From IMG/VR virus record IMGVR_UViG_3300020187_000085, positions 1 through 37,250 of that record: a stretch of 37,250 nt of DNA; one strand, 5' to 3'. Position 1 is the first letter of the stretch. Each line of letters starts with the position of its first letter. This DNA is from a virus. The notes beneath the pieces were generated by a model. The model made no database searches. It worked only from the letters and a program-made list of their open reading frames with translations, and was not told where the DNA came from. Both the position numbers and the translations under genes were made by a program. Of the stretch, positions 2,870-30,905 are shown one piece after another.

Positions 2870-5800
2870 ATGGCTGAATTAAGTAGCGTCCTCAATGCAA
2901 TCCGTAACGCAGAGGCAGCAGGGGATACGCCCGCCGTATTAAGACTAACCCAGCTAGCTAGAGATATATCCGCGCAAGATAGGGCACAACAAGCTCCTAG
3001 AGAGGTGGATTACCCCGAAGAAAATAGACGCTTAAGTGGGTATTTAGGCACTATACCGAGGGGTATTGCTGCGGGTATAGCAGGGCTTGGTGAGTCTGCT
3101 TTGCTTGGTGCGTCTAATCTTTTGCCCGAAGAGCAAGAACTAGCTGCGCGTGAAGCTATAGCCCGTGGTGGGGCGGCTGTACAAGAAGCCATAGGGCCGA
3201 AAGAGCTGTACCGTGACACCTTAGTCTCTAAACTTAGTCAGGGTCTTGGTTCTACTGTACCTTTCCTTGCTGCGGCTCCGTTCGGTGTTCCGGGTCTTAT
3301 TGCTGCGGGCGCTACTGGTGTAGCTGCGGGTTCTGGTGAAGCTACTCAACGCGCTATTGCTGCGGGTGCTACTGAAGAAGAGATTGGTGACGCTGCCCTT
3401 TTGGGTATCGGTCCGGGCGCACTAGAGATGTTTGCGCCTTTAGCTATAGTAAAACGCTTTGGTACGCTCAAGAAGGCCCTAGGTTCTGGTACTGCTACCG
3501 ATGTTGTCAGTAGGCTACGTAGAGTAGCGCAATCTGCGGGGGAAGAAGGATTACAGGAAGCTGTTACTGAAGTAGGACAGAACTTAATCGCGCAGGGTGT
3601 GTACGACCCCAATACAGGTACCTTCTTAATTGCGCAGGGTGTATACGACCCCAATACAGGTACCTTCTCCGGTACAGGCGAGTCTTTCGGTTTAGGTGCG
3701 GGTGTAGGTGGCTTGCTCCAAGGCTTGTTTGAATTAGCGATACGAAGACCGCGTGGCGGTAGTGGGGAACTTTCTGTAGTAGAAAGACAGGCGCTTGGGC
3801 TAGACGAAGAAGGTGTGGTGGCTGAAGAAGGCGCGGTGACTGGGGAATTACTGCCTCCAGAACGAGCGTTAGCCGGTCCTCCTGAACCTCAAGAACGAGT
3901 TGGGTTACCTGCTCCAAGACCAAGCAGGAAGTGGATCGTAGCGCCAGACGGTATCGCATTCCCAGAAAGATATTTGGACGACTACCGTGCCTACCGTCGT
4001 CTGCGCAGCGCAGAGTTAGCTGCGGTTGCCCCAGAAACACGTCAAGCCCGAGAAGCGGAACTAGCAAGAAAGTTCTTAGCGGATAAGGAAGTTGAAGAAG
4101 CCACTGCGGTAACAGAGGCGGCACGCTTACGTAGGGAAGCTCCACAGATGGAGTTATTCCCAGACCTGCGCGGTCAAGAAAAGACTAAGGTAACAATAGA
4201 AGACCTGACCAAACTAGGTATACCAAAAACTTCTCGCTTTGCTACTACCCTACCGAAACTTGACCTTACTAAGCCGGAAGAAGCCCGCACTGCGGCGGCA
4301 GAAATTGTACGGTACGCAAACCTACCCACAACCAAGAAGAACCCTGCCAGAAGAGAGGCGGCGTTCGGTCTGCTAAACCTGCCTGCTATACGGGCCTTGG
4401 AAGCTACTGCACCTACACCTACGCCTACCTCAATCGAGGAAGCGTCACGGCAAATGAGTATTCAAGAGCCGATAGCTACTAGCCGTATAGAAGAGCAGCG
4501 TGCCCAAGAGGCCGCACGGGTAGCAGCAGAAAGAGACGCGGCGTTCGCCGCCGCCGAAGCAGAGCGAGCAGCCCAAGAAGCAGCTATACCTCAGCAGACT
4601 GAAGCTGCATTCGAAGAAGCCCGAGACCGCAGGCGTGAAGAACTACTTGCTGCGGATACGCGTGCGCGCATGGCTACTCCCGAAGCGGAGGCTATTACTA
4701 GTCCTGTAGCGTTAGCTTTAGAGCGCGCTAAAACAGTGGGTGGGCAGCGCCTCGGGCAGGCACAATTAGAAATACAAGACAATGTTGCGCTTAGTACAGG
4801 CCAGCAAGATAGCTTTAGCCCAGAGGCTGTGGGTACAGTACCTACTCAACAAGGTCCTACTATAGACGAGCAGATAGCCGAAGCGCAGCGTGTGCTTGCT
4901 CAGTTAGAAACTCAGAAAGCGGAACAGGGCGAGATGTTCGGTCCTGAAGGTGGTGTACTACGCGGAGCAGATCGGTTTGCTTTTACCCGCGAAGGGGAGG
5001 CAGAAGCCGCCGAAGCTAGGGCTATGGAGAAAGAAATCACTACCAAAGCTAGGCGTACTGGTGCGGCTAGAAAAGCTGCGGCAACCAAAGCCGCTAAGAA
5101 AGAGGCAGAGGAAAAAGCCGCGAATAAAGCTGCCGAAGAAAAAGCCGCAGCTAAAAGGGCAGCAGCCGCTAAGAAAGCCGCCGAAGAAAAAGCCGCTAAG
5201 GCCAAAGAAGCAGAGACCGCTAAAGCCGAAACTGCTGCTCGTTCTGCCGCTGCCGCCGCTGCCGCTCCTGTGGTTGAAGAAACTGTTGTAGAAGATGTTG
5301 TAGAAGATGTTGTAGAAGATGTTGTGGAAGAAGGGGTAACTACTCCTGAAGAAGAGGTGGACGCTGCTGAATTCGACGCAGATACGGACGTGGACGCGGA
5401 AGCGGCTCGCTTAGAGCTTATTAAAAACGCTAGCCGCAAAGCAAATAACAAAGCTAGCAAGCCTAAGAAAGCCTCCAAGCGCGCGGCCAACGTAGACGAA
5501 GATATTAAGAAACTCAAAGCTCTTAAGAAGGGTAACCCCTTCTACGAGTACTTTAACAAAGATAAAGATATAAACAGCGCGCTGTCCAGACTAGCCGCCG
5601 ACATAGCAGACCGAGGCACAAAAACTGACGCCGCGCGAGCCGCAGAGGCTTGGGTAAACCAGAATTTATCCAATGATAGTAACGTCTACTTCTCAGAGAT
5701 AGTACGCCTAGAACGCGCGTACATGGGTATGCCTTTACCTACAGCTAGTATGGCACAAACTTCGGCACCATTGTCTAGCGATGTAATTGCCAAGTTAGAA

Positions 5801-8800
5801 GCTGGAGACTTGCGTGGGGCTATAGACGAACTGGCAAAGAGTAAAGACAACAACGTCAAGCGCGTTGCGTCCGCCATTTCAAAAGGCTTGGGCAACACTA
5901 AAATCGTCATGGCTAGCAATGTAGTCAGCGAATCCGGTGAGCCGGTTGCAGGTTTGTACGACCCTAAGACAGACACTATTACGCTAAACCAAGACGTTGA
6001 TCTGTCTAACCACGTCCTACTCCATGAGGCTATGCACGCTGTAACCTCTCACGAGATTGCTAAAAATACTCCTGCTGCCAAACAGATGAGGGCTTTGTTT
6101 GAGTCTATACGTGAAGGTCTGGATACTGCATACGGCGCTACTAACTTAGATGAATTTGTTGCTGAAGCGTTCAGTAACCCAGACTTCCAGTCCAAGCTGG
6201 CGGGTATAACCGCCAAGGGCGAGCGAATTACTTTGGGGGAAAAGTTCAAAAACATAGTCCTGAATATATTACGCCGATTCCGTGGGCAGCCTAGCAAGAA
6301 AATCGAGTCCGCTATGGACAAGGTGGACATGTTAGTAACCGACCTGATCTCTCCGGCTCCTGAGTACCGCGATGCAACGGCATTACCACTAGCTGCGGCG
6401 AAGGGTGCGGAAAGGAAAGTCATAGACAGCTTAGGTAAGTTTGTTAACGACAACGTATCTTCTCAGGACATAGCCGCTGTGTCTGGCTTTATGCGGGATA
6501 CGGGGCGCTCCGCGCGCAAGACCTTACTGGATATGCTCCCGCTTACTGCTATAGCCGACATAGTAGAGAAAGACATGCCCGCTATTAGTAAGTTAGGTAA
6601 GCAGTTGGTTAACACGATACAGGATAAGGCTGGTGCGCGGCAGCGGTACCTACGCAAGACTAGTGACACGGCAGCAGAACTTACTAAAGCGTTTAAGGGT
6701 AAGGCTGAGCAGAAGAAGATTTTTGACGATGTGGTAGCAGCCAGTACTGTATCTAGGGTAGACCCGTCTAAACCGCGCTCATATTACAAAGATAAGGGTG
6801 CGGGCAAGTTAGAAGAGTATGGCCGGTTACAGAAGGAGTACTGGAGCAAGCTAGATGCCGACAGCCGTAAGGCGTACTCCACGCTGCGTGATGCCTACGC
6901 GGAAATGTACGAAGAGCTTAAGAATACTCTGTCCGCTAGAATCGACGCTATCGAGAAAGACCCCAAGCTTAATAAGCAGATCAAGGACCGCTTACTGCAA
7001 GAGATACTGGGTAAAGAAGCTATTGAGCCTTACTTCCCACTCTACCGCAAGGGCGACTACTGGCTACAGTACAACGCGGTAAACCCAGAAACAGGCAACA
7101 TAGAGCCGTACAAGGAAGCGTTTGAGACCCAAGCCCAAAGAGAAAAGGCAAAGGATCAAATCTTAAACGACCCAGAAATACTTAAGGCGTTGCGCGACCC
7201 TAAAGTAAACAAATCTGGTGCCGCCCCAGAAACGCTGTTCGACTTTTCTGAGTACGACCGTATAGACGAAGCCAAGAAGCTACGGCAGGGTAACATAGAC
7301 ACTGCGTTTGCCTTTAAGCTATTGGGTGAAATACGCAGACCGCGCAAAGACGATAAGACCGGTGAGCCTATAAAGCTAGATAAGCAAACCGAGAAGATGG
7401 TCATGGAGATGTTGTTAGATGCCATGCCAGAGCGCGGACTAGCTAGGGCGTTACAGAAACGTGAGGGCATACTGGGTTTTGAAAGAGACTCTATTAAAGT
7501 CTTCCGAGAGCGCATGCCAAATATTGTTACTCAGACTGTAAACTTACAGTACGAAACGGAGTTAGCTAAACTAAACGCGGAGCTAAACGACGCAAGGGGT
7601 GAGGCCATAAACGAGCCGGGCCTTACGCTAAAGGATAAGCAGAACATAACGCAGACTGTGGGCCACTTCCAAGAGTACATAGAGTTTGCTAAGCACCCGC
7701 AGCTAGATACGTGGAGTCGTGCACTTAAGTCTGCGGGCTTTGGTATGACCCTAGGCTTTAACGTGTCTTCCGTACTGGTCAACTGGACTAACTTACCGGT
7801 TGTTGTACTGCCATACCTAGGCGGCAAGTACGGATTTAAGGATGCTAATAGGGCGCTCTTCGATGCGCATAAGCGGTTTATGTCTACACCTAAGAGCCGC
7901 ACTATGACAGGCTTTGGGGATACTGTATTCGGTACGGCCGCAGAAGGTCCGTCGCTTACCAACGTGAATTATGACGACCCGACCACCCCTCCAGAGCTAG
8001 CGCGGTATAAGGTCTTGTCTGAACTTTTGGACAGGCGCGGTCAGGCTAACACGACTATGACTTCAGACGCGCTAGATATGGAGAATCCTGCTAGCAGCAC
8101 GTGGACTAAGATAAACGCTATGATGGGCTACATGTTCCACCAAGGCGAACGACTAAACCGTCAAGTAAGTGCTATGGCTACGTTCGATTTAGAAATGGCT
8201 AAGATAGCGAAAGATAAGCATGGCGGGGATGTTACTAAGTTAACAGATGCAGAGTTGCAGGCTGCGGCACAAGAAGCACTGGACGCTACCGAACTTACTA
8301 ACAGTGGCGCACTTACAGAAACAGCTCCTCGTTTCGCACAGAGTAATCTGGGCAGTGTTATCTTTATGTACAAGCGCTTCGGCGTGTCGATGCTTTACTT
8401 GCAAGCCCGTATGGCGAAGCAAGCAGTCTCTAAGATGTCCACGGACGAAGAGAAAATCATCGCTAAGAAACAACTGGCCGGGCTGTTCGCTACTTCTGGA
8501 CTACTTGCGGGCGTGCAGGGCTTACCGTTATACGGCGTCGTCTCGTTCATTATGAACACTGTATTCCTCGATGATGAGGATGAAGACTTCGATACTATAG
8601 CTTCTACGTTCTTCGGTGAGGGTATGTACTCCGGCGCTATTAACGCGATAACCGGCGCAGATGTGGCCCCACGTATTGGTATGACTAACTTGGTATTCCG
8701 TAGTCTACCTAATAAAGAAGAAGATAGTCTGGTACTGCAAGGTCTTGAGCTAGTAGCCGGTCCTGTATACGGTGTTGCGAACCGCGCACTGAGTGGTATT

Positions 8801-9310
8801 GGACTGCTAAGCGAAGGGGAAGTCTGGCGGGGTTTTGAGAAGATGGTACCTAGCGCGGCTAGTAACGTAATGAAGTCGGTTAGATACGGTACTGATGGTG
8901 TTACTACACTGCGGGGCGACCCTATTGTGGAAGATATTGGTCCTCTGGCTATTGGTGCTCAGGCTATCGGTCTGGCCCCTGCAAGCTACACGCAGATGCT
9001 GGAAAGAAACGCAGTAGATAAACGTATTGACAGGAATGTTAACGCCCGTCGTACTAAGCTCCTACGTGAGTACTACCTAGCCAAACGCAGCAATGACTTT
9101 GGGGCTATACAGGACATAAGTGAGGAAATGAGGGAGTTCAATCAGGACAACCCAGACTTCCCGATCACACCGGATACTATAGACCGCTCGCTAAAGCAGC
9201 ACGAAAGAACTAGTGACGTTACTAAGCAGTTCGGTGGGGTTACGATTAGCCCTAGACGTAGAGAATCTGTGTTGCGCGATAGAGCAGAAGCGGCTGGAGA
9301 AGAGTACTAA
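2870..9310 (+). CDS. Very large virion-associated polyvalent protein with zincin-like HExxH motif
   Basis: A 2146-residue protein. In order: a Gly/Ala-rich hydrophobic segment (~residues 60-190); an in-frame 14-residue tandem duplication (239-266); a long Lys/Glu/Ala-rich helical stretch with a VVED repeat (~600-830); a metallopeptidase-like site HEAMH (1052-1056) followed ~40 residues later by DEFVAEAF (1094-1101), whose Glu could be a third zinc ligand; then ~1000 residues of mixed helix with short hydrophobic segments around residues 1860-1920 and 1970-1990. Giant phage proteins of this type, with a zincin and large-polyvalent-protein domains, are thought to be ejected with the DNA and to act early in the host. 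Being last in the late block fits an internal virion protein. The metallopeptidase assignment rests on the motif only. Confidence 0.65.
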   Translation: MAELSSVLNAIRNAEAAGDTPAVLRLTQLARDISAQDRAQQAPREVDYPEENRRLSGYLGTIPRGIAAGIAGLGESALLGASNLLPEEQELAAREAIARGGAAVQEAIGPKELYRDTLVSKLSQGLGSTVPFLAAAPFGVPGLIAAGATGVAAGSGEATQRAIAAGATEEEIGDAALLGIGPGALEMFAPLAIVKRFGTLKKALGSGTATDVVSRLRRVAQSAGEEGLQEAVTEVGQNLIAQGVYDPNTGTFLIAQGVYDPNTGTFSGTGESFGLGAGVGGLLQGLFELAIRRPRGGSGELSVVERQALGLDEEGVVAEEGAVTGELLPPERALAGPPEPQERVGLPAPRPSRKWIVAPDGIAFPERYLDDYRAYRRLRSAELAAVAPETRQAREAELARKFLADKEVEEATAVTEAARLRREAPQMELFPDLRGQEKTKVTIEDLTKLGIPKTSRFATTLPKLDLTKPEEARTAAAEIVRYANLPTTKKNPARREAAFGLLNLPAIRALEATAPTPTPTSIEEASRQMSIQEPIATSRIEEQRAQEAARVAAERDAAFAAAEAERAAQEAAIPQQTEAAFEEARDRRREELLAADTRARMATPEAEAITSPVALALERAKTVGGQRLGQAQLEIQDNVALSTGQQDSFSPEAVGTVPTQQGPTIDEQIAEAQRVLAQLETQKAEQGEMFGPEGGVLRGADRFAFTREGEAEAAEARAMEKEITTKARRTGAARKAAATKAAKKEAEEKAANKAAEEKAAAKRAAAAKKAAEEKAAKAKEAETAKAETAARSAAAAAAAPVVEETVVEDVVEDVVEDVVEEGVTTPEEEVDAAEFDADTDVDAEAARLELIKNASRKANNKASKPKKASKRAANVDEDIKKLKALKKGNPFYEYFNKDKDINSALSRLAADIADRGTKTDAARAAEAWVNQNLSNDSNVYFSEIVRLERAYMGMPLPTASMAQTSAPLSSDVIAKLEAGDLRGAIDELAKSKDNNVKRVASAISKGLGNTKIVMASNVVSESGEPVAGLYDPKTDTITLNQDVDLSNHVLLHEAMHAVTSHEIAKNTPAAKQMRALFESIREGLDTAYGATNLDEFVAEAFSNPDFQSKLAGITAKGERITLGEKFKNIVLNILRRFRGQPSKKIESAMDKVDMLVTDLISPAPEYRDATALPLAAAKGAERKVIDSLGKFVNDNVSSQDIAAVSGFMRDTGRSARKTLLDMLPLTAIADIVEKDMPAISKLGKQLVNTIQDKAGARQRYLRKTSDTAAELTKAFKGKAEQKKIFDDVVAASTVSRVDPSKPRSYYKDKGAGKLEEYGRLQKEYWSKLDADSRKAYSTLRDAYAEMYEELKNTLSARIDAIEKDPKLNKQIKDRLLQEILGKEAIEPYFPLYRKGDYWLQYNAVNPETGNIEPYKEAFETQAQREKAKDQILNDPEILKALRDPKVNKSGAAPETLFDFSEYDRIDEAKKLRQGNIDTAFAFKLLGEIRRPRKDDKTGEPIKLDKQTEKMVMEMLLDAMPERGLARALQKREGILGFERDSIKVFRERMPNIVTQTVNLQYETELAKLNAELNDARGEAINEPGLTLKDKQNITQTVGHFQEYIEFAKHPQLDTWSRALKSAGFGMTLGFNVSSVLVNWTNLPVVVLPYLGGKYGFKDANRALFDAHKRFMSTPKSRTMTGFGDTVFGTAAEGPSLTNVNYDDPTTPPELARYKVLSELLDRRGQANTTMTSDALDMENPASSTWTKINAMMGYMFHQGERLNRQVSAMATFDLEMAKIAKDKHGGDVTKLTDAELQAAAQEALDATELTNSGALTETAPRFAQSNLGSVIFMYKRFGVSMLYLQARMAKQAVSKMSTDEEKIIAKKQLAGLFATSGLLAGVQGLPLYGVVSFIMNTVFLDDEDEDFDTIASTFFGEGMYSGAINAITGADVAPRIGMTNLVFRSLPNKEEDSLVLQGLELVAGPVYGVANRALSGIGLLSEGEVWRGFEKMVPSAASNVMKSVRYGTDGVTTLRGDPIVEDIGPLAIGAQAIGLAPASYTQMLERNAVDKRIDRNVNARRTKLLREYYLAKRSNDFGAIQDISEEMREFNQDNPDFPITPDTIDRSLKQHERTSDVTKQFGGVTISPRRRESVLRDRAEAAGEEY
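3584..3667 (+). repeat. 42-bp in-frame tandem duplication
   Basis: Two adjacent 42-bp units (3584-3625 and 3626-3667) differ at only two bases, and both encode LIAQGVYDPNTGTF. The duplication keeps the frame of the giant virion gene. Both differences are synonymous, so the second copy seems to have been kept as protein. Confidence 0.9.
5285..5332 (+). repeat. 12-bp minisatellite encoding VVED repeats
   Basis: Three identical copies of GTTGTAGAAGAT (5285-5320) are followed by a fourth diverged copy (5321-5332). They encode Val-Val-Glu-Asp repeats within an acidic linker of the giant virion protein. This is slippage-prone, low-complexity sequence. Confidence 0.85.
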
Positions 9311-13511: not shown

Positions 13512-13820
13512 CTAAAAGTCTTCGTTTTCATCTAAGTCTAAGCCCAATTCTTCTTCTAGGCTCACTGGGTTTTTGTTAGTTACACCAATCGTGACAGTAC
13601 CTACAGTTGCTACAGCGGCATCTAGCCTAGCTTCTGGCGGCTCGTCTTGCGTCAACGACTCCAAAACCTTTGGGACATTAAACCGATAGGTGTTAGCTAC
13701 TTTTATATAGGTATCTCGTGGGATAAACCCTTGGCGTACCCATGTTCGTACAGTGTTTGTTTTAACTGATAGCTTTTCTGCTAATACGTCTATTGGGACG
13801 TAGGTTTCAACGCTGCTCAC
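13512..13820 (-). CDS. Helix-turn-helix (excisionase/MerR-like) DNA-binding protein
   Basis: A 102-residue protein. The N-terminal ~55 residues (VPIDVLAEKLSVKTNTVRTW through FIPRDTY and YRFNVPKVLESL) match the winged HTH of excisionase/MerR-like proteins: a recognition helix followed by a wing that ends in an aromatic. The C-terminal half is acidic and probably flexible. The start is GTG, overlapping the stop of the upstream gene (GTGA), with a good GGAG seven bases before it. It sits among replication genes with no integrase in view, so it may be a transcription regulator rather than an excisionase. Confidence 0.65.
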   Translation of the reverse strand: MSSVETYVPIDVLAEKLSVKTNTVRTWVRQGFIPRDTYIKVANTYRFNVPKVLESLTQDEPPEARLDAAVATVGTVTIGVTNKNPVSLEEELGLDLDENEDF

Positions 13821-23328: not shown

Positions 23329-24298
23329 GAGTTTCTACCTCAGCCATTGTTTCGGGCGAGATGTATACACACATAGCGTCTTCAACAAAGTCATAGTCGT
23401 ATGCGTCTTTCGTCACGCAGCCAATACTAGTCAGCACCCTAGTCTCATACGAATACCCTACATTATCCATCGCATCTATACCTGTAGCTTGCAACACAGA
23501 CAGCTTAGCCAGAACTTCTTGGGGTAACTTGTTTACGTCGTCTACGTGCTTGACGCGCTGCATCTCACCTGCGGTAGTGTCTCTGTAATGAAAGAACACC
23601 TTGTCTATGTTCTTCAGCTTGTATATAGAAAGAGTCTGTAGTCCATCGCACGCAGCAATAGAGTCACCTAAGTCTTTCTTAGCCTCTAGGTACTTGTTAG
23701 TGCAGTCCTCAACTTCGTGTCGTATGTCAGCGCGTACTGGGCGTTGTTCCACAGCAGCTAAGGAGTATTCGAGCAGCGCCTGTTCTCTTTGGTAGCCCCT
23801 CATTGAGCCGAACACTCGAGACTGGAGTTCGTCTAACTTCTCCTGCGCTTGTTTAAGACCTCGACCATAGGGGTCTATAGTTCCCTGCATAACTTTCTCT
23901 AACACACGTTCGCCTGTCACGCTTTTGGTGTCTTTGATTAGCTTAGTCGCGCGGGCTAGGGTCTTGGTTATGCTAGTGAAACGTCTATCACTGTAGGCTA
24001 TGTTGCCGCGGTGCTCGGTGTAGGGTAGTTCGCGTTCGCGGCGGGTGCTTACAGTCATAACTATGTAGGCGTCCGTGTCCCACGATACCTTGGCATCGAA
24101 GCACATACTCTGGGGGCTAAGTTGTATAGCTAACGCGTCGTCTGCGGTGTGTCTGAACTTAGCAAGTGGGTGAGTCTTCTTAACACGTTTCTGTAACGCG
24201 ACTAACTCCTTTGCCATGCGTGGAGAATAGTTGTCTACCTCCATCTCGCGGTTGAGTGATACGTCACAACCGAATGTTTTTTCTATGATGTTTCTCAT
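23315..24298 (-). CDS. Hypothetical protein in MoxR/VWA module
   Basis: A 327-residue protein without recognisable catalytic motifs. The N-terminal ~120 residues are mixed alpha/beta; ~130-220 look helical (RGLKQAQEKLDELQ, EQALLEYSLAAVEQ); the C-terminus contains VFFHYRDTTAGEMQRV. AGGAG lies before the ATG, and the leader holds a degenerate form of the 19-bp palindrome that retains CTATAACTAA and overlaps the stop of the VWA gene. Being directly downstream of VWA and sharing its leader element suggests it belongs to that module. Confidence 0.6.
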   Translation of the reverse strand: MRNIIEKTFGCDVSLNREMEVDNYSPRMAKELVALQKRVKKTHPLAKFRHTADDALAIQLSPQSMCFDAKVSWDTDAYIVMTVSTRRERELPYTEHRGNIAYSDRRFTSITKTLARATKLIKDTKSVTGERVLEKVMQGTIDPYGRGLKQAQEKLDELQSRVFGSMRGYQREQALLEYSLAAVEQRPVRADIRHEVEDCTNKYLEAKKDLGDSIAACDGLQTLSIYKLKNIDKVFFHYRDTTAGEMQRVKHVDDVNKLPQEVLAKLSVLQATGIDAMDNVGYSYETRVLTSIGCVTKDAYDYDFVEDAMCVYISPETMAEVETLVGY

Positions 24299-24312
24299 GA
24301 TGTTGCTCCTGT

Positions 24313-24335
24313 TAGTTATAGGTTTATGTGTAACG
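24313..24335 (-). promoter_or_regulatory. Degenerate copy of the palindromic leader element
   Basis: On the minus strand this reads CTATAACTAACAGGAG into the Shine-Dalgarno of the 327-residue gene. The right half of the 19-bp element (CTATAACT) is intact, the left half is degraded. It overlaps the stop codon of the VWA gene and keeps the close spacing to GGAG seen at the perfect copies. Confidence 0.5.
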
Positions 24336-25542
24336 TCTTGCCGATTGTGGGTCGGGCACTCTTGTTATCTAGGATTCCCCACAGCAGGGGCATAGTCCAA
24401 GCACCCCAGTCACCACCTAGATAGCCATCAGTCAGCACGATCACTGCCTGTGCGTTGATGTTGTTCTTCTGTATGTAGTCAGGCACACACTGCACCCTCG
24501 TACCTCCACCACCTGCGGGCTTGGTTGTTTGTGTAAGTTGTTCCAGAGAAGCACAAGCGCCGGGCACGTCACCGTACACCTCGTCACTGCACACCTTGGT
24601 ATCCCAGTACAGTATGCGAACGGATTCGGGCCTTACTGTATCGCACACACCCTTGATCTCACTCAGGCACTTGGTCAGCTCGTGTTGTCCGATACTACCC
24701 GACGTGTCTATTGCAATGACTAGCTCACCAACACGTTCTGTAATACCACTAGGTCGAAGCATGCCCATCGCTAGATGTCGTCTGCTAGGTTGTCTCCATG
24801 TGCTGTCGTCGTTACCTCGACACGTTTCTGTAATGAACTCACGTAACACCTCGCGCCAGTTAACCTCGGGCTGTAGCAGTTGGTCGATAGCTCGGTTGCC
24901 CCCACTACCTACCTTACCTGCGGTCAGCGCACCTTGGCGTATGGCTTGGTCGATCTCTTGTGCTAGATCACGCTGTTCATCTGCGCTCATCTCCTGCGCA
25001 CCTTCCCAGTCGTGCTCGTCTAGTCCTGCACCTGCACCTTCGCCCTCACCTTGGTCGCTGTCGTCTGGGTTATCTTCCTGTTCTTGTTTCAGTATCTTGT
25101 ATACCTGTGCCGTGTCCATGTTGCGGAACTTCTCATCGAGCAAGCCTATGTTGTTACCCTCTGCGTCCTTGGGCATAGTCGCAAACCCATCACGGTTCTC
25201 GTCGTCAATCATCAGGTTGATTACATAGTCACACGCCATGTTGGCTAGCTGTGCATCGTCTTTATATAGGTGTTCCCATGTAGTTAGATGCTTGAACAGC
25301 TTGTGGTATGTCTCGTGCAAGATAAGGAACCGGAACTCTGAGTCACTTAGTCCATCAGCAAACGCACGACCATAGTAGTCATCGCGTCCGTTAGTGTAGG
25401 CAGTAGGGCAGTCGTCCTTGATACCCTTCTCACCGATCATCAGTACACCTGCGAGCGCCACGTACTTCGGGTTGCCCATGATCGCTGTGATGTTCTTAGA
25501 CAGCCGCTGTTCGGCGGATAGTTGTGTGTTAATTGCTAGCAT
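24316..25542 (-). CDS. VWA-domain protein with putative metallopeptidase domain (DUF2201-like), MoxR partner
   Basis: A 408-residue protein. The N-terminal domain has an HExxH-type motif, HETYH (76-80), in EFRFLILHETYHKLFKH, followed by a helix with NMACDYVINL; this matches the putative metallopeptidase half of DUF2201-type proteins. An acidic, Gly-rich linker spans ~155-185. The C-terminal von Willebrand A domain has a complete MIDAS: DTSGS (279-283), Thr348 in GGGGT and Asp372 in TDG. Such proteins work with MoxR-type AAA+ ATPases, and the ATPase is the next gene upstream. GGAG sits before the ATG, with a perfect 19-bp palindrome six bases further upstream. The substrate of the pair is unknown. 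Confidence 0.85.
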   Translation of the reverse strand: MLAINTQLSAEQRLSKNITAIMGNPKYVALAGVLMIGEKGIKDDCPTAYTNGRDDYYGRAFADGLSDSEFRFLILHETYHKLFKHLTTWEHLYKDDAQLANMACDYVINLMIDDENRDGFATMPKDAEGNNIGLLDEKFRNMDTAQVYKILKQEQEDNPDDSDQGEGEGAGAGLDEHDWEGAQEMSADEQRDLAQEIDQAIRQGALTAGKVGSGGNRAIDQLLQPEVNWREVLREFITETCRGNDDSTWRQPSRRHLAMGMLRPSGITERVGELVIAIDTSGSIGQHELTKCLSEIKGVCDTVRPESVRILYWDTKVCSDEVYGDVPGACASLEQLTQTTKPAGGGGTRVQCVPDYIQKNNINAQAVIVLTDGYLGGDWGAWTMPLLWGILDNKSARPTIGKTLHINL

Positions 25543-25560
25543 GATTCGATCTCCATAATT

Positions 25561-25579
25561 AGTTATAGAATCTATAACT
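25561..25579 (-). promoter_or_regulatory. 19-bp palindromic element, copy 1 (VWA gene leader)
   Basis: Perfect copy of AGTTATAGAATCTATAACT (9-bp arms, one central base). On the minus strand it lies 6 nt upstream of GGAG for the VWA gene and touches the stop codon of the frame-shifted MoxR tail. A CTGACA hexamer 16 bp before TATAAC would make the right arm a -10 box here only. Confidence 0.85.
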
Positions 25580-25654
25580 TACTTGTCAGCACTAAACATG
25601 TAGTTGTTAGCCATGCACCAGTCTTGAAACTTCTTGTGCTGCACTACGTAGTCG
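25579..25654 (-). pseudogene. Detached C-terminal tail of the MoxR gene
   Basis: In the frame used after deletion of one copy of the 8-bp duplication (25655-25670), the MoxR protein would continue as RRDYVVQHKKFQDWCMANNY and end MFSADK at the TAA of 25579-25581, right against the palindromic element. As it stands, the sequence runs into TAG at 25644. The tail looks like true protein (Trp/Cys/Tyr-rich helix), and it fills the otherwise empty 65 bp before the element, so I read it as the lost end of the ATPase rather than as a separate gene. Confidence 0.6.
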
Positions 25655-26687
25655 CGTCGGCTCGTCGGCTGTACTGTGGTGCGCGTACGCCATTGACGAA
25701 CAAACCCTGTGCTTCCTTGGATAACCTGTTCATGTAAGTCAGCCAAGGGTCTACCCATGTGCGCTCGATAGTTGCTAGTGCTCGATACACCACCATGCAC
25801 ACAGCAGCCGGACTGTCAGGTACAGGCGCATTCATCGGGTCGTTCTCTATCTGGTCACGGGTTGGTAGCTTGTCAGCCAGTGCAATGAACGCAGCTAGGT
25901 CTAGCGCAGCTCGGTCACCAATCGTACCAATGAGCGCAGCGGTGAGCTGTGTGTCGTCCAACAAGTGGCGCATTTTGAGTATGTCACTAGCCCTGTGCAG
26001 TGAGCGTGGGGTAGTAAAGGCAGCACGGTTGCTGCGTGGGTGAGGTATGTAAGGGTTCTCGTCTGGGTTCTCGTACTGCTCGAAGCTGTGGAATAGCTCG
26101 GGCTTCTCCTTACAGAAACCAAGTAGTGCAGGGTCGAGGTTGTTGTTGATACCGAAGTCCTCGATGAACTCCATGTTGTCAGGGTTACGCATGGTCACTA
26201 CGGTGATGCGGTTACGAGTATGTGCAGGTAGCAAGTCACCTAGACCCTCCGCACCTAAGTTAGTTGTAGCGAACACAATACTATCAGGGTGCAGCTCATA
26301 CCCACTGTGCTTACGTTCGAGCATGATGCGGTTACAGGCTAGGATTACTGAGCGGTTACACTTACCGATCTCGTCTAGCATTAGGATTACAGGTTGGTCG
26401 GGCAGGTGTAGCCCAAGGTCTTCGAGTGGTACGGTCTTGAATGTCTTGCCGTCCTCTGAATACTTCACCATAAACATATCAGCCGAATCGACCATCGTTG
26501 TGCAGTCTAGGTAAACAGGTTTGTGAGTGGGTCGCATCAGGGCAATGATGTTGATGATCGAAGACTTGCCTGTGCCCATGTTGCCCTGCACTACTACCGT
26601 GATGGCTTGCCCGATAGTGTTGATGAGCTGTGCAGTTTGGTTGATGCCGAGTGCGTACATTGCTTGTGCTGTGTTTGCGTTATTCAT
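25644..26687 (-). CDS. MoxR-type AAA+ ATPase, C-terminus frameshifted
   Basis: A 347-residue AAA+ ATPase. Walker A is GNMGTGKSS (35-43), Walker B LMLDEIG (102-108), sensor 1 FATTN (139-143), and arginine-finger candidates lie in HTRNR (~156-160). A helical lid-like domain follows (PRSLHRASDILKMR). MoxR-type ATPases couple ATP hydrolysis to remodelling of a target presented by a VWA partner, here the next gene. The last five residues (ADATT) come from a frameshift caused by a perfect tandem 8-bp duplication; without it the protein would be 366 residues. The leader has a consensus sigma70 promoter and a 19-bp palindrome eight bases upstream of GGAG. Confidence 0.85.
   Translation of the reverse strand: MNNANTAQAMYALGINQTAQLINTIGQAITVVVQGNMGTGKSSIINIIALMRPTHKPVYLDCTTMVDSADMFMVKYSEDGKTFKTVPLEDLGLHLPDQPVILMLDEIGKCNRSVILACNRIMLERKHSGYELHPDSIVFATTNLGAEGLGDLLPAHTRNRITVVTMRNPDNMEFIEDFGINNNLDPALLGFCKEKPELFHSFEQYENPDENPYIPHPRSNRAAFTTPRSLHRASDILKMRHLLDDTQLTAALIGTIGDRAALDLAAFIALADKLPTRDQIENDPMNAPVPDSPAAVCMVVYRALATIERTWVDPWLTYMNRLSKEAQGLFVNGVRAPQYSRRADATT
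25655..25670. repeat. 8-bp perfect tandem duplication causing frameshift
   Basis: CGTCGGCT occurs twice in a row (25655-25662, 25663-25670) inside the MoxR coding region. Eight bases is not a multiple of three, so the duplication moves the frame to an early stop. Removing either copy restores an open frame to the operator-adjacent stop. Confidence 0.85.
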
Positions 26688-26706
26688 TGTGTTGCTCCAG
26701 TTAATT

Positions 26707-26725
26707 AGTTATAGAATCTATAACT
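26707..26725 (-). promoter_or_regulatory. 19-bp palindromic element, copy 2 (MoxR leader)
   Basis: Perfect copy in the leader of the MoxR gene, 8 nt before its GGAG. It lies about 40 bp downstream of the -10 box at 26767, that is, within the transcribed leader. Confidence 0.85.
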
Positions 26726-26766
26726 TTCGTTGCTGTGTGTTGGTGTTTCTTGCTGTTACGATGTCT

Positions 26767-26794
26767 ATTATAAGGATATGTTATGTTAAGTCAA
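26767..26794 (-). promoter_or_regulatory. Sigma70-type promoter of the MoxR gene
   Basis: On the minus strand: TTGACT (-35, 26794-26789), 16-bp spacer, TATAAT (-10, 26772-26767). The predicted start of transcription near 26760 gives a leader of about 73 nt containing the palindrome. The spacer shares TAAC and AACATATC blocks with the promoter at 29046-29073. Confidence 0.75.
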
Positions 26795-26799
26795 CTAGG

Positions 26800-27711
26800 C
26801 TAAAAGCCTAGTGACGGTAGGTTCTTGATGATCTCATCGACGTTGCGCTTGGTGTTGCTACGCAAGTACGGGTCTCTGCGTAGTCCGTCTGTCGTTACGC
26901 CTTTGAGTGCGTTGGTCAGGTCGATGCGTACCTGCTCCATCTTCGGGTCGTTGTTCACGTTACATGCTTTGAGTACATCTACTACTGTGACCACGTGGTC
27001 TACTAGCGTGCCGTGAAACCCAGTCGCGCGCTCACCCTCGCCATAGTCGAGCATCTTAGACATGTGCTGTAGAGGTTCCAGAACACGTTGCCATACGTCG
27101 CTCATCGCGCTGGTTAACTGCTCGTCATAGAACTTACTGTAGCTTTCTTCTAGTACCGCTTTGGCTTCGGTGTTTATGTCCAGTCGGAAGTCGCCTCGCT
27201 CAGGTACAGGCATGTAGTTCACGCGTATCTTAAACTTACTGCGTACTGTCTCGACCGAAGGGTAGTCGTCTGGGTTATACAATGTGCCTAGCTTGGCTTG
27301 CGTGTCTGCTACCTCCCACGAATACGCATCTAAAAACTCCTCAACTAGTTGGCGAAAGTTCTCCATCATCTCGTCCATGTGTCGCTTGTAGTCTAAGAAG
27401 TAGTTGTTGGTGAGGAGTCTGTGCCCCATGTTAGACCAAGGTAGCGTAGCGTTACGGTGGAAAGACCTTATGGTTTCCCTGTATGTTTTGATAGCTTTCA
27501 GTTCTTCGCAGTCTACTAGCAGGTCTTTTGTTACCCTCGCTGCATTCTTCTTGGCGTTATTCCTAGAGGTAACGTCGTTGGTTGCCTTCTTATCCTTCTT
27601 GCGCCCCTCCCAGATACCTATACTTAGTTCTGCTAACAGTGCGCTGCTAGCGATAGAGGGTGCGTGGTTTGTCTGTGGTGCTACGTGTAGCTGAGTTACG
27701 GTTGCGTTCAT
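26800..27711 (-). CDS. DUF3150-like protein of the MoxR/VWA module
   Basis: A 303-residue protein. The N-terminal region has ELSIGIWEGRKKDKKATND, then a charged helix, and RNATLPWSNMGHRLLTNNYFLDY; this order matches my recollection of DUF3150-type proteins, which are often encoded beside MoxR (CobS-like) and VWA (CobT-like) genes in phages and integrative elements. Long helices fill the middle (MDEMMENFRQLVEEFLDAY), with beta strands near ~170-190. It has no catalytic motif and may be the third, structural component. AAGGAG precedes the ATG. It ends only 6 bp before the -35 of the MoxR promoter. Confidence 0.6.
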   Translation of the reverse strand: MNATVTQLHVAPQTNHAPSIASSALLAELSIGIWEGRKKDKKATNDVTSRNNAKKNAARVTKDLLVDCEELKAIKTYRETIRSFHRNATLPWSNMGHRLLTNNYFLDYKRHMDEMMENFRQLVEEFLDAYSWEVADTQAKLGTLYNPDDYPSVETVRSKFKIRVNYMPVPERGDFRLDINTEAKAVLEESYSKFYDEQLTSAMSDVWQRVLEPLQHMSKMLDYGEGERATGFHGTLVDHVVTVVDVLKACNVNNDPKMEQVRIDLTNALKGVTTDGLRRDPYLRSNTKRNVDEIIKNLPSLGF

Positions 27712-27713
27712 GG

Positions 27714-27908
27714 TTATTGCTCCTTAGTTAGTAAGTCGTTGATGGTTCGGTCGATCAGGTTATTGAGAGCCACGCTGTGTGGCAGGTTCTCCATCGCGTC
27801 AAACAAGGCATGCCTATACATGCCGTCCTCTAAAAACTTCCGCTCGTTCTCGGTCAGCTCCACCTCATCCACCCAGTCCAGTGTCGCGTTATCGTTCAAG
27901 TCTTTCAT
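27714..27908 (-). CDS. Small acidic hypothetical protein
   Basis: A 64-residue protein, acidic N-terminal half (WVDEVELTENERKFLEDG) and helical C-terminus. GGAGG lies ten bases before the ATG. It is two bases upstream of the DUF3150-like gene, so the two are co-translated. No family recognised. Confidence 0.55.
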   Translation of the reverse strand: MKDLNDNATLDWVDEVELTENERKFLEDGMYRHALFDAMENLPHSVALNNLIDRTINDLLTKEQ

Positions 27909-28071
27909 GGTCGGTTATCCTCCACAGGTAGTTAAACAAGTTTATGTGCGCAGCGCATGGCTCGCAGAAGTCGTTCCCTTTAGTTGCACGTATCTGCGCA
28001 CTGCACATCTCGCAGGGTTTTTTGTTGGTAACGGTGTAATGCTTGGGTTTGGGCTTTGGTTGTGCTGTCAC
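27889..28071 (-). CDS. Small zinc-finger-like protein
   Basis: A 60-residue protein with two CxxC pairs, CEMC and CEPC, about 13 residues apart, which could bind one zinc. The N-terminus is basic and Pro/Lys-rich (AQPKPKPKHY). The start is GTG with an excellent AGGAGG seven bases upstream, and shares a base with the upstream stop (TAGTG). Possibly nucleic-acid-binding. Confidence 0.6.
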   Translation of the reverse strand: MTAQPKPKPKHYTVTNKKPCEMCSAQIRATKGNDFCEPCAAHINLFNYLWRITDHERLER

Positions 28072-28307
28072 TACTCGTCCTCCTCTGTTCCTAGATAAAC
28101 AAGTTTGCGTATGGCATAGAACGACACCACTGCGCTAGGCAGTAGCCAAACCAATCCGAGCGTAAGCCCAAATTTCTTAGCTGCCAGATCGGACAACACC
28201 ATAAGCACGAGGGTCATAGGTATGCCCATGAAAACTAGCGTAAGCCCAAACTGTTCATTCAGCCGACTTTCGCGCCTTTCCTTCGCCCACAATTCGTAAT
28301 CTTTCAT
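28071..28307 (-). CDS. Small membrane protein, two predicted transmembrane segments
   Basis: A 78-residue protein. After a charged N-terminal helix (MKDYELWAKERRESRLNEQ) come two hydrophobic segments, roughly FGLTLVFMGIPMTLVLMVL and FGLTLGLVWLLPSAVVSFY, separated by a basic DLAAKK turn, and an acidic end. The two-segment layout would suit a class II holin or another inner-membrane protein, but it is far from the lysis gene at 19849. ATG 28307 overlaps the stop of the upstream gene (ATGA). Confidence 0.6.
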   Translation of the reverse strand: MKDYELWAKERRESRLNEQFGLTLVFMGIPMTLVLMVLSDLAAKKFGLTLGLVWLLPSAVVSFYAIRKLVYLGTEEDE

Positions 28308-28513
28308 AACAACATCCCCAAAAAGACTAGGCAGTAAATGCCTGTGAACAATCCCAGTACACCAACGCCTCGCGCCATCCACACCCAAGCAGGTAACTCC
28401 TCTTCCTTCCAAGCGTACTTGTTATCGGGGTCGTGCAGGTTCAGCTTCGCATAGGGTTTGTACACTTCGCCGACTGCGTGGTTTGGTGTTCGGTTTAGCT
28501 TGATTACTTTCAT
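28304..28513 (-). CDS. Small protein with one C-terminal membrane segment
   Basis: A 69-residue protein. Polar N-terminal ~40 residues, then WVWMARGVGVLGLFTGIYCL and more hydrophobic residues to the end, a single likely transmembrane anchor. ATG 28513 has GGAG before it and a perfect 19-bp palindrome six bases further upstream; its start overlaps the stop of the upstream gene. It is followed by the two-segment membrane protein, so the pair may act together at the inner membrane. Confidence 0.6.
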   Translation of the reverse strand: MKVIKLNRTPNHAVGEVYKPYAKLNLHDPDNKYAWKEEELPAWVWMARGVGVLGLFTGIYCLVFLGMLL

Positions 28514-28725
28514 GACTGCTCTCCACAATTAGTTATAGAATCTATAACTTTCCGGTCTGGGTTAAGGTCGTAGAACCTCGCGCGCTCAGTACGTGCGAAC
28601 TTTGCTAGCATGACGCCACATTCGAAACAGGTGGTGAATCCCGCGTTAGCACGGGACTGGTCATATAAGGTGTCGCACATTAAACAGCCGACTTCGGTCA
28701 GCAGATGTATTTTTGCTTTGCTCAT
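28510..28725 (-). CDS. Zinc-ribbon-like small protein
   Basis: A 71-residue protein with two CxxC pairs, CLMC and CFEC, about 16 residues apart. The C-terminal residues KVIDSIT are encoded by the 19-bp palindrome (28531-28549), so coding and regulatory sequence coincide. GGAGG lies seven bases before the ATG, which overlaps the upstream stop (ATGA). Probably a small nucleic-acid or protein-binding zinc protein. Confidence 0.6.
   Translation of the reverse strand: MSKAKIHLLTEVGCLMCDTLYDQSRANAGFTTCFECGVMLAKFARTERARFYDLNPDRKVIDSITNCGEQS
28531..28549 (-). promoter_or_regulatory. 19-bp palindromic element, copy 3 (inside a coding sequence)
   Basis: Perfect copy within the last codons of the 71-residue zinc-ribbon-like gene, 6 nt upstream of the GGAG of the 69-residue membrane-anchored protein gene. 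Confidence 0.8.
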
Positions 28726-28946
28726 TGGGTAACCTCCGCGTGTCGGGCGTGACGCTCTCTTAAATCACGCAGTATGTACTCGACCGCTTCTAGCTTCGGC
28801 GGGTTACGCTCGGTGAGCGCGATCAACGCTCTTTCCAAATCCCTTTCGGTATCGTCGGCTAACATGCGCAGCTTGTGTTCTGCATCAGCCAGCTCGTCGT
28901 GCTTGTGAATTAGTTGGTGCCTGTAGTACTCCACGTTTTTGCTCAT
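28722..28946 (-). CDS. Small coiled-coil protein, first gene of leftward unit
   Basis: A 74-residue, mostly helical and charged protein (YYRHQLIHKHDELADAEHKLRML...YILRDLRERHARH). AGGAG precedes the ATG, and a perfect 19-bp palindrome lies eight bases further upstream. It is the first gene after the consensus promoter at 29046-29073 and overlaps the next start (ATGA), so it leads the leftward unit. Function unknown. Confidence 0.6.
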   Translation of the reverse strand: MSKNVEYYRHQLIHKHDELADAEHKLRMLADDTERDLERALIALTERNPPKLEAVEYILRDLRERHARHAEVTQ

Positions 28947-28967
28947 ACTGTCTTGCTCCTGTTAATT

Positions 28968-28986
28968 AGTTATAGAATCTATAACT
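28968..28986 (-). promoter_or_regulatory. 19-bp palindromic element, copy 4 (leader of 74-aa gene)
   Basis: Perfect copy, 8 nt before the GGAG of the 74-residue gene and about 60 bp downstream of the -10 box at 29046, again inside the transcribed leader. Confidence 0.85.
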
Positions 28987-29045
28987 TTTTGTTATGTTGA
29001 AAACATGTTTGTGTAACTTGGCTGTTACCCCGAAACACAATAACT

Positions 29046-29073
29046 ATTATACGTTGATATGTTGTTAAGTCAA
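29046..29073 (-). promoter_or_regulatory. Sigma70-type promoter of the leftward 28.9-kb unit
   Basis: On the minus strand: TTGACT (29073-29068), 16-bp spacer, TATAAT (29051-29046). It is nearly the twin of the MoxR promoter, sharing the -35, the -10 and AG after it, and AACATATC in the spacer. It would transcribe the 74-residue gene and the genes behind it. Confidence 0.75.
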
Positions 29074-29202
29074 GTGCTGTGCTTTTTGGTTATGTTTAGT
29101 TATTGGCGGTGTTGTTTTGGTAATATTCCAAATATTCTTTTTATACAAAAGAGGGGCGAAAAAAAGAATAATGTAAGTGCTTGATATTGCTAGGTTTGGT
29201 TT

Positions 29203-29238
29203 TGTAATCTTCTTTTTTGGCTGTAATCTTCTTTTTTG
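29203..29238. repeat. 17-bp direct repeat, period 19
   Basis: TGTAATCTTCTTTTTTG occurs at 29203-29219 and again at 29222-29238, separated by two bases. It lies in the AT-rich candidate origin region and resembles iterons or a slippage product. Confidence 0.8.
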
Positions 29239-29654
29239 AAAATGGCTGATTTTGACGTAAGTGCTTGATTAGATTGAAGTTGGCTTTGTATTATTCTTTT
29301 TTGGCTTTTTTAGACATAGGCTAGGGAATTTTATAGGCAAAAGGGGGGTAAACGAACAGTACGGCAACGTGTTCTGGTAAGTGCCCAACTGGGTCTTTTT
29401 ACTTTTCTTATTATTATAATAAAAAAAGAATAATATAGTAGTAATAGGTAAAAAAGGGCTAAATCTATACACCTACAAAGCACTACTCTTTAACAAACAA
29501 AGTTAAACGACACTAAACGATAAAGGGCAAAATGCCCTACCCAAAAAAGAATAATAGAATAATAGGTAACAAAGTCTAACGAATTCAATAGCTTGCGCGT
29601 GCATGGCAAAACACCGAAAAAGAAGATTAGTTAATTTTTTGCACTTTGTAGGAA

Positions 29655-29673
29655 AGTTATAGAATCTATAACT
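29655..29673 (-). promoter_or_regulatory. 19-bp palindromic element, copy 5 (no adjacent gene)
   Basis: Perfect copy in the AT-rich intergenic region. No Shine-Dalgarno or credible start codon lies downstream on the minus strand, unlike copies 1-4, so here it may act as a DNA site. Confidence 0.75.
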
Positions 29674-29684
29674 TTTTGGCTGTC

Positions 29685-29765
29685 AGGCGGCACGCCGCTA
29701 GATAACTGGTCTCGCTTGGTTTGAACTGCGCGCGCTTCGTAGGCGGCACGCTGCTAGGTAACTGG
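29685..29765. repeat. 25-bp GC-rich direct repeats, 56 bp apart
   Basis: Units at 29685-29709 and 29741-29765 match at 23 of 25 bases (AGGCGGCACG followed by C/T GCTAG, then A/G TAACTGG). Each contains GGCG-GCA-CGCC-like dyad symmetry, perfect in the first unit. They lie just right of palindrome copy 5 and contrast with the AT-rich surroundings. Confidence 0.75.
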
Positions 29766-29880
29766 CATCGTTTGCTTGGCGCGATGTGGTGGGGCAGGGA
29801 TTGTACTGATACGCAAAGTGGTTGGGTGTTAGATAGAGAAACGTATTGGAGAGGGTGATAGGGGCAGGAATTACAGGCAC

Positions 29881-29904
29881 AAAAAAGCCGCCTTGCGGCG
29901 GCTT
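29881..29904 (-). terminator. Intrinsic terminator of the 188-aa gene
   Basis: 8-bp stem AAGCCGCC/GGCGGCTT with a TTGC loop (29885-29892 with 29897-29904). On the minus strand it is followed by a T-run (six A at 29881-29886 on the plus strand). It lies 18 bp beyond the stop of the leftward gene at 29922. Confidence 0.85.
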
Positions 29905-29921
29905 AGTGTAACGTGGTGGGT

Positions 29922-30488
29922 TTACTTGCCTTTGATTGAGTTAAGCTTTTCGAGTAGATCGCCGATTAGCTTTTTAATCTCATCCCTTTTCGCTTCGGTT
30001 AATTGCGACACCGGTATAGCGTTAACTACATCGCGGCCAGTCGATACGTGCTCAATATAAGACTTGAGCGGCGTGGCGCTTGTATTGTTCGCGGCCGGTG
30101 CTGCCGGTGTTGCCGACTGATTAGTCGATCCGCCAGTAGCGCGTTCTACTTTAGGTTCACGCGCTTTGAGTAGCCGCGCAATATCACCCATTCGAGCGCC
30201 GATCTTTTGTTGAATGGTTTTCTTGAGCGCCTTGGTCGCATCGTCCATCGACTTGGTATCGGCGACTAAAAGCTTGCGATCGGCGACTGTGAAAGCGGCG
30301 ACTACCGCCTTTTTAAGCGCTACGTAGTCAGTGCGATCTAATCCCTTCGCGGGTGCCTTGAAATCTACCGAGCGCATTCCATCGGCGTAGAGTTCATCGA
30401 GAGGTTTAACAAGCGCCTTCTCTTTTGACTCGATAGTCTTGGTAGCGGCAGTTACGTTCGCGAGGATTGTAGTAGTAGTTTTTTGCAT
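29922..30488 (-). CDS. Hypothetical helical protein of unusual codon use
   Basis: A 188-residue protein, Lys/Ala/Thr-rich. Residues 1-110 look helical (ATKTIESKEKALVKPLDEL, KALKKTIQQKIGARMGDIARLL), then a Ser/Thr/Ala/Pro linker (~117-140) and a C-terminal helix (EAKRDEIKKLIGDLLEKLNSI). It stands alone, with its own promoter, terminator and an upstream palindromic element, so it is transcribed separately. Its codons (many TCG, GCG, GAT, CTC) and frequent GATC sites differ from neighbouring genes, which suggests later acquisition. A DNA-binding or regulatory role is possible because of the basic helices and the location beside the candidate origin, but no motif proves it. GGAG lies seven bases before the ATG. 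Confidence 0.65.
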   Translation of the reverse strand: MQKTTTTILANVTAATKTIESKEKALVKPLDELYADGMRSVDFKAPAKGLDRTDYVALKKAVVAAFTVADRKLLVADTKSMDDATKALKKTIQQKIGARMGDIARLLKAREPKVERATGGSTNQSATPAAPAANNTSATPLKSYIEHVSTGRDVVNAIPVSQLTEAKRDEIKKLIGDLLEKLNSIKGK

Positions 30489-30540
30489 GGTATTGCTCCA
30501 GCCGGTTTATCTGGGCGATATTGCCCCCGACTTGGTAACC

Positions 30541-30569
30541 ATTAGAACATCTTTCCGTATCGTTTGCAA
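30541..30569 (-). promoter_or_regulatory. Possible promoter of the 188-aa gene
   Basis: On the minus strand: TTGCAA (-35), 17-bp spacer, TCTAAT (-10). The predicted transcript starts about 46 nt before the ATG at 30488. The match to consensus is moderate. Palindrome copy 6 lies just upstream, at about -50 to -70. Confidence 0.45.
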
Positions 30570-30585
30570 GCGTTTTATGGTGTTT

Positions 30586-30604
30586 AGTTATAGAATCTAT
30601 AACT
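30586..30604 (-). promoter_or_regulatory. 19-bp palindromic element, copy 6 (upstream of the 188-aa gene)
   Basis: Perfect copy 98 bp upstream of the start of the 188-residue gene and upstream of its likely promoter. There is no nearby Shine-Dalgarno, so this copy would have to act as a DNA site or within a longer transcript. Confidence 0.8.
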
Positions 30605-30876
30605 TATTGGCGGGGCCTTTTTTGTAGGACTTGGTGGCCTGCCGACCCACCCCTAGGGGCACCCCCACTTGCAGCACGCTGGTACCATGCACGCGTAGTA
30701 ATACTATTTCACATGAATGATTGCGTTTAAAAACATGTTTTGGTAACTAACACTCGCCCGGGAACCCTTAAGTATACTTTTTCGACCCCCACCCCCTTCT
30801 TTCTACCATGCGGCTACTTCGCACCCCACCCCCCTCTATATAGGAAAGGCCCCCCCATAGGAGTCCCAAGCCCTTG
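30605..30876. other. Intergenic region between divergent units
   Basis: No gene is seen. The stretch is rich in C-runs (CCCCCAC, CCCCCTC, CCCCCCC) and contains the 10-bp palindrome AAACATGTTT at 30731-30740, also found at 29001-29010. It separates leftward early genes from the rightward packaging operon, and is a natural place for a control region or for a packaging site next to the terminase genes. Confidence 0.4.
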
Positions 30877-30905
30877 TTGCAAATAAATTTTTTGTATCCT
30901 ATACT
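30877..30905 (+). promoter_or_regulatory. Sigma70-type promoter of the packaging/head operon
   Basis: TTGCAA (30877-30882), 17-bp spacer, TATACT (30900-30905). Transcription should begin near 30912, about 29 nt before the terminase small subunit start. The spacer is very T-rich. Confidence 0.6.

Follow-up and report, generated by a model that had tools for sequence, protein, structure and literature searches.

Six identical copies of a 19-bp palindrome lie in the early block of leftward genes of this phage, and the question they raise is what the element does and which molecule reads it. The window analysed here is the entire 37,250-base IMG/VR record (classed as linear), which is probably a fragment because related phages reach ~60 kb.

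Palindrome copies in the window and in related phages

The palindrome AGTTATAGAATCTATAACT occurs exactly, as the original prediction had reported, at 25561, 26707, 28531, 28968, 29655 and 30586. Shuffled sequence yields 0.03 matches, so that six exact copies stand far above chance, and a search of the window found no further copy within three mismatches. The centre base is the same in all six, and the described leader arrangement of copies 1-4 was confirmed, with AATT after each copy and the GGAG of a leftward gene 6-8 nt downstream. The copies and the genes that follow them are:

25561..25579, no strand assigned, putative operator copy 1, upstream of the VWA gene and overlapping the true MoxR stop codon
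26707..26725, no strand assigned, putative operator copy 2, upstream of MoxR, centre at ~+44 of a sigma70-like promoter
28531..28549, no strand assigned, putative operator copy 3, within the end of a 71-aa Zn-ribbon ORF
28968..28986, no strand assigned, putative operator copy 4, centre at ~+62 of a sigma70-like promoter
29655..29673, no strand assigned, putative operator copy 5, in a non-coding block, with a copy at the corresponding place in contigs L008, L016 and L019
30586..30604, no strand assigned, putative operator copy 6, 116 nt upstream of the start of the 188-aa gene, centre at ~-62 of its likely promoter
24316..25542, minus strand, VWA/DUF2201 gene, candidate target
25579..26687, minus strand, MoxR-type AAA+ ATPase gene, frameshifted near 25662 in the record, candidate target
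28304..28513, minus strand, ORF after copy 3, starting at the ATG at 28513, candidate target
28722..28946, minus strand, 74-aa ORF downstream of copy 4, candidate target

The proposal that the element marks a regulon including MoxR and VWA is supported, both genes being candidate targets. The supposed degenerate fifth leader at 24313, CTATAACTAA before GGAG, turned out to be the ordinary end of the VWA coding sequence; it is no decayed element, because it is VWA coding sequence conserved in phages that use quite different palindromes. At the MoxR frameshift (window 25579-25800), the last 27 family residues continue in another frame, are 85-100% identical to those of L036 and G013, and end at the stop codon that overlaps copy 1; the shift is either a sequencing error or real. 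The region between copies 4 and 6 (29000-29900) is mostly non-coding and contains repeats of AAGAATAAT-like tracts as well as a strong stem resembling a terminator (29885-29904).

Four related contigs (L008, L016, L019, L036) keep AGTTATAGAATCTATAACT exactly or nearly, in the more distant of them within DNA that has diverged to ~66-82%. Conservation of orientation, which had been read from the window, does not extend to them: the other centre base is found at L016:2269 and at L008:6404/L036:10676, and the centre varies freely in phages with other palindromes. Outside this phage group, exact-pattern matches are mostly single copies. Close relatives lacking the element, which the original prediction named as evidence against it, do exist, as nearly all contigs with a homologous VWA gene are without AGTTATAGAATCTATAACT, even some that are 92-95% identical in the VWA protein. 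The functional claim nevertheless survives, since most such relatives with enough sequence carry, in their early block, a perfect dispersed palindrome of their own, for example TGTTATCGAATTCGATAACA, TGCGGACACGTGTCCGCA, GTTAGGGAATTCCCTAAC or GTTAGTGnnnCACTAAC. Across the group these palindromes span 15-20 bp and follow the rule of one phage, one palindrome. A near-complete record has roughly 5-12 copies, most of which fall in the early block to the left of TerL. No dispersed palindrome was found in HTVC027P and DSL-LC04, the two named phages checked among the nearest by TerL (~42-45%).

The association with translation starts is real in the sense direction, yet not universal. A start codon lies within 40 nt of 40% of 85 sites, compared with 9% of random places, and about 60% of the sites are not close upstream of one. 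The argument that a DNA operator need not hold a fixed spacing to the ribosome site, raised in favour of an RNA element, loses force in view of these counts, the loose spacing in relatives and a homologue of copy 3 in L008 and L036 that sits within the ORF, just past the ATG.

Copies acting in the mRNA as leader hairpins (8-bp stem, 3-nt loop), bound by a protein or processed, could control translation or stability. Such hairpins would account for the strand bias, a ribosome site plus start codon following within 40 nt in 40% of the 85 sites in the sense direction and 1% in the antisense direction, and for five of the six leaders in the window the predicted fold contains the 8-bp stem. Transcripts would include copies 2 and 4, because two of the following promoters lie upstream of them:

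26767..26794, minus strand, sigma70-like promoter TTGACT-16-TATAAT, upstream of copy 2
29046..29073, minus strand, sigma70-like promoter TTGACT-16-TATAAT, upstream of copy 4
30541..30569, minus strand, promoter-like TTGCAA-17-TCTAAT of the 188-aa gene, with TTG[C/T]AA and TCTAAT kept in close relatives

However, when the leaders were folded, one of the suggested checks, they were not clearly more stable than their shuffles (z -0.03 to -2.2), and the sites are almost all exact (173, against 7 with one mismatch), G.T pairs being rare (two of the seven single mismatches). Several palindrome types are symmetric through the centre, would-be loop bases included; the L008/L036 homologue inside its gene has the other centre base; the likely promoter of the 188-aa gene has its -35 box downstream of copy 6; and no Rfam covariance model matched in 24200-30900. 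We consider leader hairpins improbable, although of the alternatives to a DNA operator they fare best.

A candidate reader encoded next to the terminase genes

The palindrome changes between phages that are otherwise close. G003 and G005 are mostly ~85-98% identical in shared proteins, yet their palindromes differ (GTAGTT and GTAGTG), and they also differ in the gene next to TerS. In the window, this gene is the first leftward one next to the terminase genes:

29922..30488, minus strand, gene of the 188-aa regulator (g188 family), which covaries with the palindrome and is the putative cognate DNA-binding protein
30159..30242, minus strand, long helix, codons 83-110, from the AlphaFold2 model and covariation
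30183-30188, minus strand, residues 101 (Gly) and 102 (Asp), which track half-site bases

The family is highly diverse. The L011 protein is only 26% identical to that of the window, yet the two phages have in common the half-site GTTATAG and Gly101-Asp102. At 61 of 81 loci a palindrome lies 20-200 nt upstream of the g188 gene, compared with 16% of random positions; in 38 of 45 it is a member of the dispersed family. By tblastn, the window protein had no match in the collection of named phages, and an alignment-based locus search was defeated by the shortage of conserved stretches in the family.

Another protein that goes along with the early block could in principle read the operators, namely the DUF3150 protein (26800-27711), the Zn-ribbon protein (28510-28725) or the HTH protein (13512-13820), the last of which has a weak helix-turn-helix match. 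DUF3150 was favoured by identity contrasts, at 74% identity between phages that share a palindrome and 42-45% otherwise, against 75-97% for MoxR and VWA, and in a smaller set one of its columns reached familywise P 0.04. Its tree, however, does not follow the palindrome, as close DUF3150 proteins occur with quite different palindromes (G013, L053/L054, G012, L061), and its window scan in that set was not significant (P 0.36). G003 and G005, despite their different palindromes, have HTH proteins that are 93% identical. Column tests in this group covered DUF3150; a reader among these proteins seems improbable, slightly more so than leader hairpins.

Evidence for the g188 protein as reader comes from individual residues. 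In a first set of 47 aligned members, the residues that best predicted the inner triplet of the half-site were 101, 95, 98, 55, 102 and 99, five of them in one helix, and in a window scan corrected for overall similarity the eight best windows fell within residues 87-107 (familywise P 0.024). Since significance in this discovery set was only moderate (familywise P 0.024-0.042), new loci were collected by anchoring on three further TerL proteins, adding 81 regulator/palindrome pairs. The test set comprised 44 representatives below 50% identity, chosen and assigned their half-sites by our own script, with phages of ambiguous palindromes, the TTCGGG group included, excluded.

Among these representatives, Asp102 accompanied G as the third base of the inner triplet (21 of 26, against 1 of 18; p=5.7e-7), a basic residue, Gln or His at 102 accompanied C at the same base (8 of 9, against 4 of 35; p=2.3e-5), and Lys or Arg at 101 accompanied G as the second base (10 of 13, against 2 of 31; p=6.4e-6). 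Lineages from the new set alone agree. The Lys/Arg101 rule, read from the first set before the new one was drawn, gave p=0.0055; the values for Asp102 with G (p=0.0058) and for basic, Gln or His102 with C (p=0.0017) are less strictly independent, since the rule for residue 102 was noticed on the pooled set, which was then split. Of 504 column-base tests, residue 102 with base 3 came out strongest (z 9.3, familywise P<0.001), and residue 101 alone against base 2 did not reach familywise significance (P=0.16). When evolution was simulated on the TerL tree and on one built with residues 90-111 left out, each of the three rules gave P<1/4000. The controls are not fully clean, given the single DUF3150 column noted above, and phylogeny does contribute, as TerL control columns also carry some signal (tree-simulated P 0.0035-0.094; phi 0.24-0.57, against 0.70-0.77 for the regulator residues). 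The chemistry of the pairs can be interpreted as sensible, with Asp suiting cytosine, and Lys guanine, on the opposite strand. Sequences from more than 100 related phages thus indicate that sites and two regulator residues change together, so that part of a DNA-reading code would be visible from sequences alone.

The AlphaFold2 model of the 188-aa protein is all-helical (pLDDT 84), with a well-defined three-helix domain at residues 37-115 (pLDDT 93, pTM 0.76). An alpha helix that reads an RNA stem sequence-specifically is uncommon, which we count against leader hairpins. Searches of Pfam, PHROG and NCBIfam gave single-member, chance-level matches only, PDB sequences gave none, and fold searches of the PDB with the full model and the domain, and of viral predicted structures with the full model, gave no confident match. 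Without family, PDB sequence or confident fold matches, the g188 regulator is a previously unnamed protein family with no recognised DNA-binding fold. The protein may still belong to a known helix-turn-helix family despite the missing fold match. We lean, somewhat cautiously, towards a broader view of g188 as a large unnamed phage regulator family without a recognisable DNA-binding fold, in which an adjacent two-residue code in a long helix reads palindromic half-sites, and which would form many mutually specific pairs in phages without a detectable integrase.

Promoter geometry and a possible mode of action

Taken together, these patterns make it very probable that the palindromes serve as DNA operators for the phage's own 188-aa regulator, which would bind them as a dimer. 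Each subunit would read one half-site, GTTA-xxx, through the long helix (residues 83-110); within the inner triplet, the third base would be specified by residue 102 and the second by residue 101. From the options originally left open, the operator is thus strongly favoured and gains a cognate protein, whereas the RNA hairpin and the N4-type promoter are disfavoured.

The sense strand has few strong sigma70-like promoters. With a cut-off score of at least 10 out of 12, 12 sites lie at +30..+70 of a scoring promoter (1.15 expected), six at -80..-50 (0.8 expected) and one within the RNA polymerase footprint (2.0 expected), while many sites have no strong promoter nearby. The sites cluster at ~+38 to +64 of strong sigma70-like promoters and at ~-56 to -78 of the regulator's own, where most of the upstream sites are found (-62 in the window and in G005, -64 in G008, -56 in G003, -74 in G007 and -78 in G001); the distant L011 retains only TTG.AAAC of the regulator promoter. 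This geometry suggests that the factor blocks early operons and also controls its own gene.

The simplest reading would be a downstream block at early promoters combined with autoregulation at the regulator's own promoter. Bound ~40-60 bp past a transcription start, or between genes of an operon, the protein may block RNA polymerase in a stoperator-like manner, whereas the operator position at the regulator's own promoter, ~60 bp upstream, would be suited to autoregulation, possibly activation. The likely outcome would be a timed shut-off of the early leftward operon, MoxR and VWA included; physical binding, dimerisation, repression and its timing are all steps that we infer from sequence patterns. 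Two other arrangements were considered and rejected. A palindrome overlapping the -10 box fits in the window only at copy 1 (CTGACA-16-TATAAC), and across the genomes the sites avoid the polymerase footprint. A GalR-like loop between flanking sites, considered because sites in G003, G005 and G009 lie at ~-102/-110 and +58/+62 of one promoter, is seen at too few promoters.

A reading of the copies as phage-specific or N4-type hairpin promoters, from each of which the next gene would be transcribed, is very improbable: copies 1-4 do stand ~20 nt before start codons, and a 2146-aa protein (2870-9310) with DarB-like C-terminal PHROG matches has a weak PHROG match to a virion RNA polymerase (9e-6), but standard sigma70-like promoters lie at defined distances from the sites, many copies have no downstream start and one is inside a gene, and searches of nine records, run without a positive control, found no T7-type or virion RNA polymerase family match.

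Comparison with known regulatory systems

On the features compared here, the closest known systems are mycobacteriophage stoperators and the SAS/ESAS elements. In the cited accounts, cluster A stoperators are asymmetric 13-bp sites of temperate phages, bound by a monomeric repressor (PMC6550527, PMC9283540). As there, many nearly identical short sites are dispersed in the phage genome, their consensus varies with the regulator of each phage type, the regulator would be a phage-encoded DNA-binding protein, one site lies at its locus, and the placement could stop an elongating polymerase. Unlike the asymmetric, one-orientation stoperators, the sites described here are perfect palindromes whose centre base flips in L008 and L016, they are mostly confined to one early block, and a search of nine records found no phage integrase. 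No protein relation of g188 to known systems was found in the Pfam, PHROG, NCBIfam and PDB sequence libraries.

In cluster K, SAS elements are asymmetric and located at the translation initiation sites of a subset of genes, and ESAS are imperfect 17-bp inverted repeats, mostly with a 4-13 bp spacer, whose half-sites differ between subclusters; the authors did not know what either element does or what reads it (PMC3203893). The present repeats resemble them in being tied to the translation starts of some genes and in having inverted-repeat half-sites that vary. The two systems differ in that a candidate reader is proposed here, the association with starts is partial, and no 13-bp GGGATAGGAGCCC-type sequence occurs at the start, where another sequence stands upstream of GGAG at variable spacing.

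Covariation of site sequence with regulator residues, a general criterion for an operator and its regulator, is what we found. It is also the approach of GntR- and IclR-family coevolution studies, which are reported to have predicted protein-DNA contacts from correlated residue and base changes (PMC4494728, PMC8222616); those are known bacterial regulator families, whereas the present one, from phages, is unnamed. An abundant phage gene family that lacks annotation would thereby acquire a putative function, with a rule for predicting part of the operator from residues 101 and 102, and with many natural regulator-operator pairs for studying the evolution of DNA specificity. Related phages would have switched specificity many times, helix and operators changing together, which raises the question of why phages without a detectable integrase diversify their operators as temperate phages diversify immunity.

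Several contigs depart from the common pattern or add minor detail. One short contig came from a Rhodobacterales bin of a genome collection, a weak hint of the host. In L079 and L081 two families of dispersed palindromes occur together, GTTAGTCCACGGACTAAC and GTTATGCCACGGCATAAC (the latter also present in L083-L085), perhaps reflecting two regulators or a switch in progress. In L182, L186, L190 and L178, which have a divergent branch of the regulator, TGxxxACAyrTGTxxxCA palindromes lie only ~35 nt before the gene.
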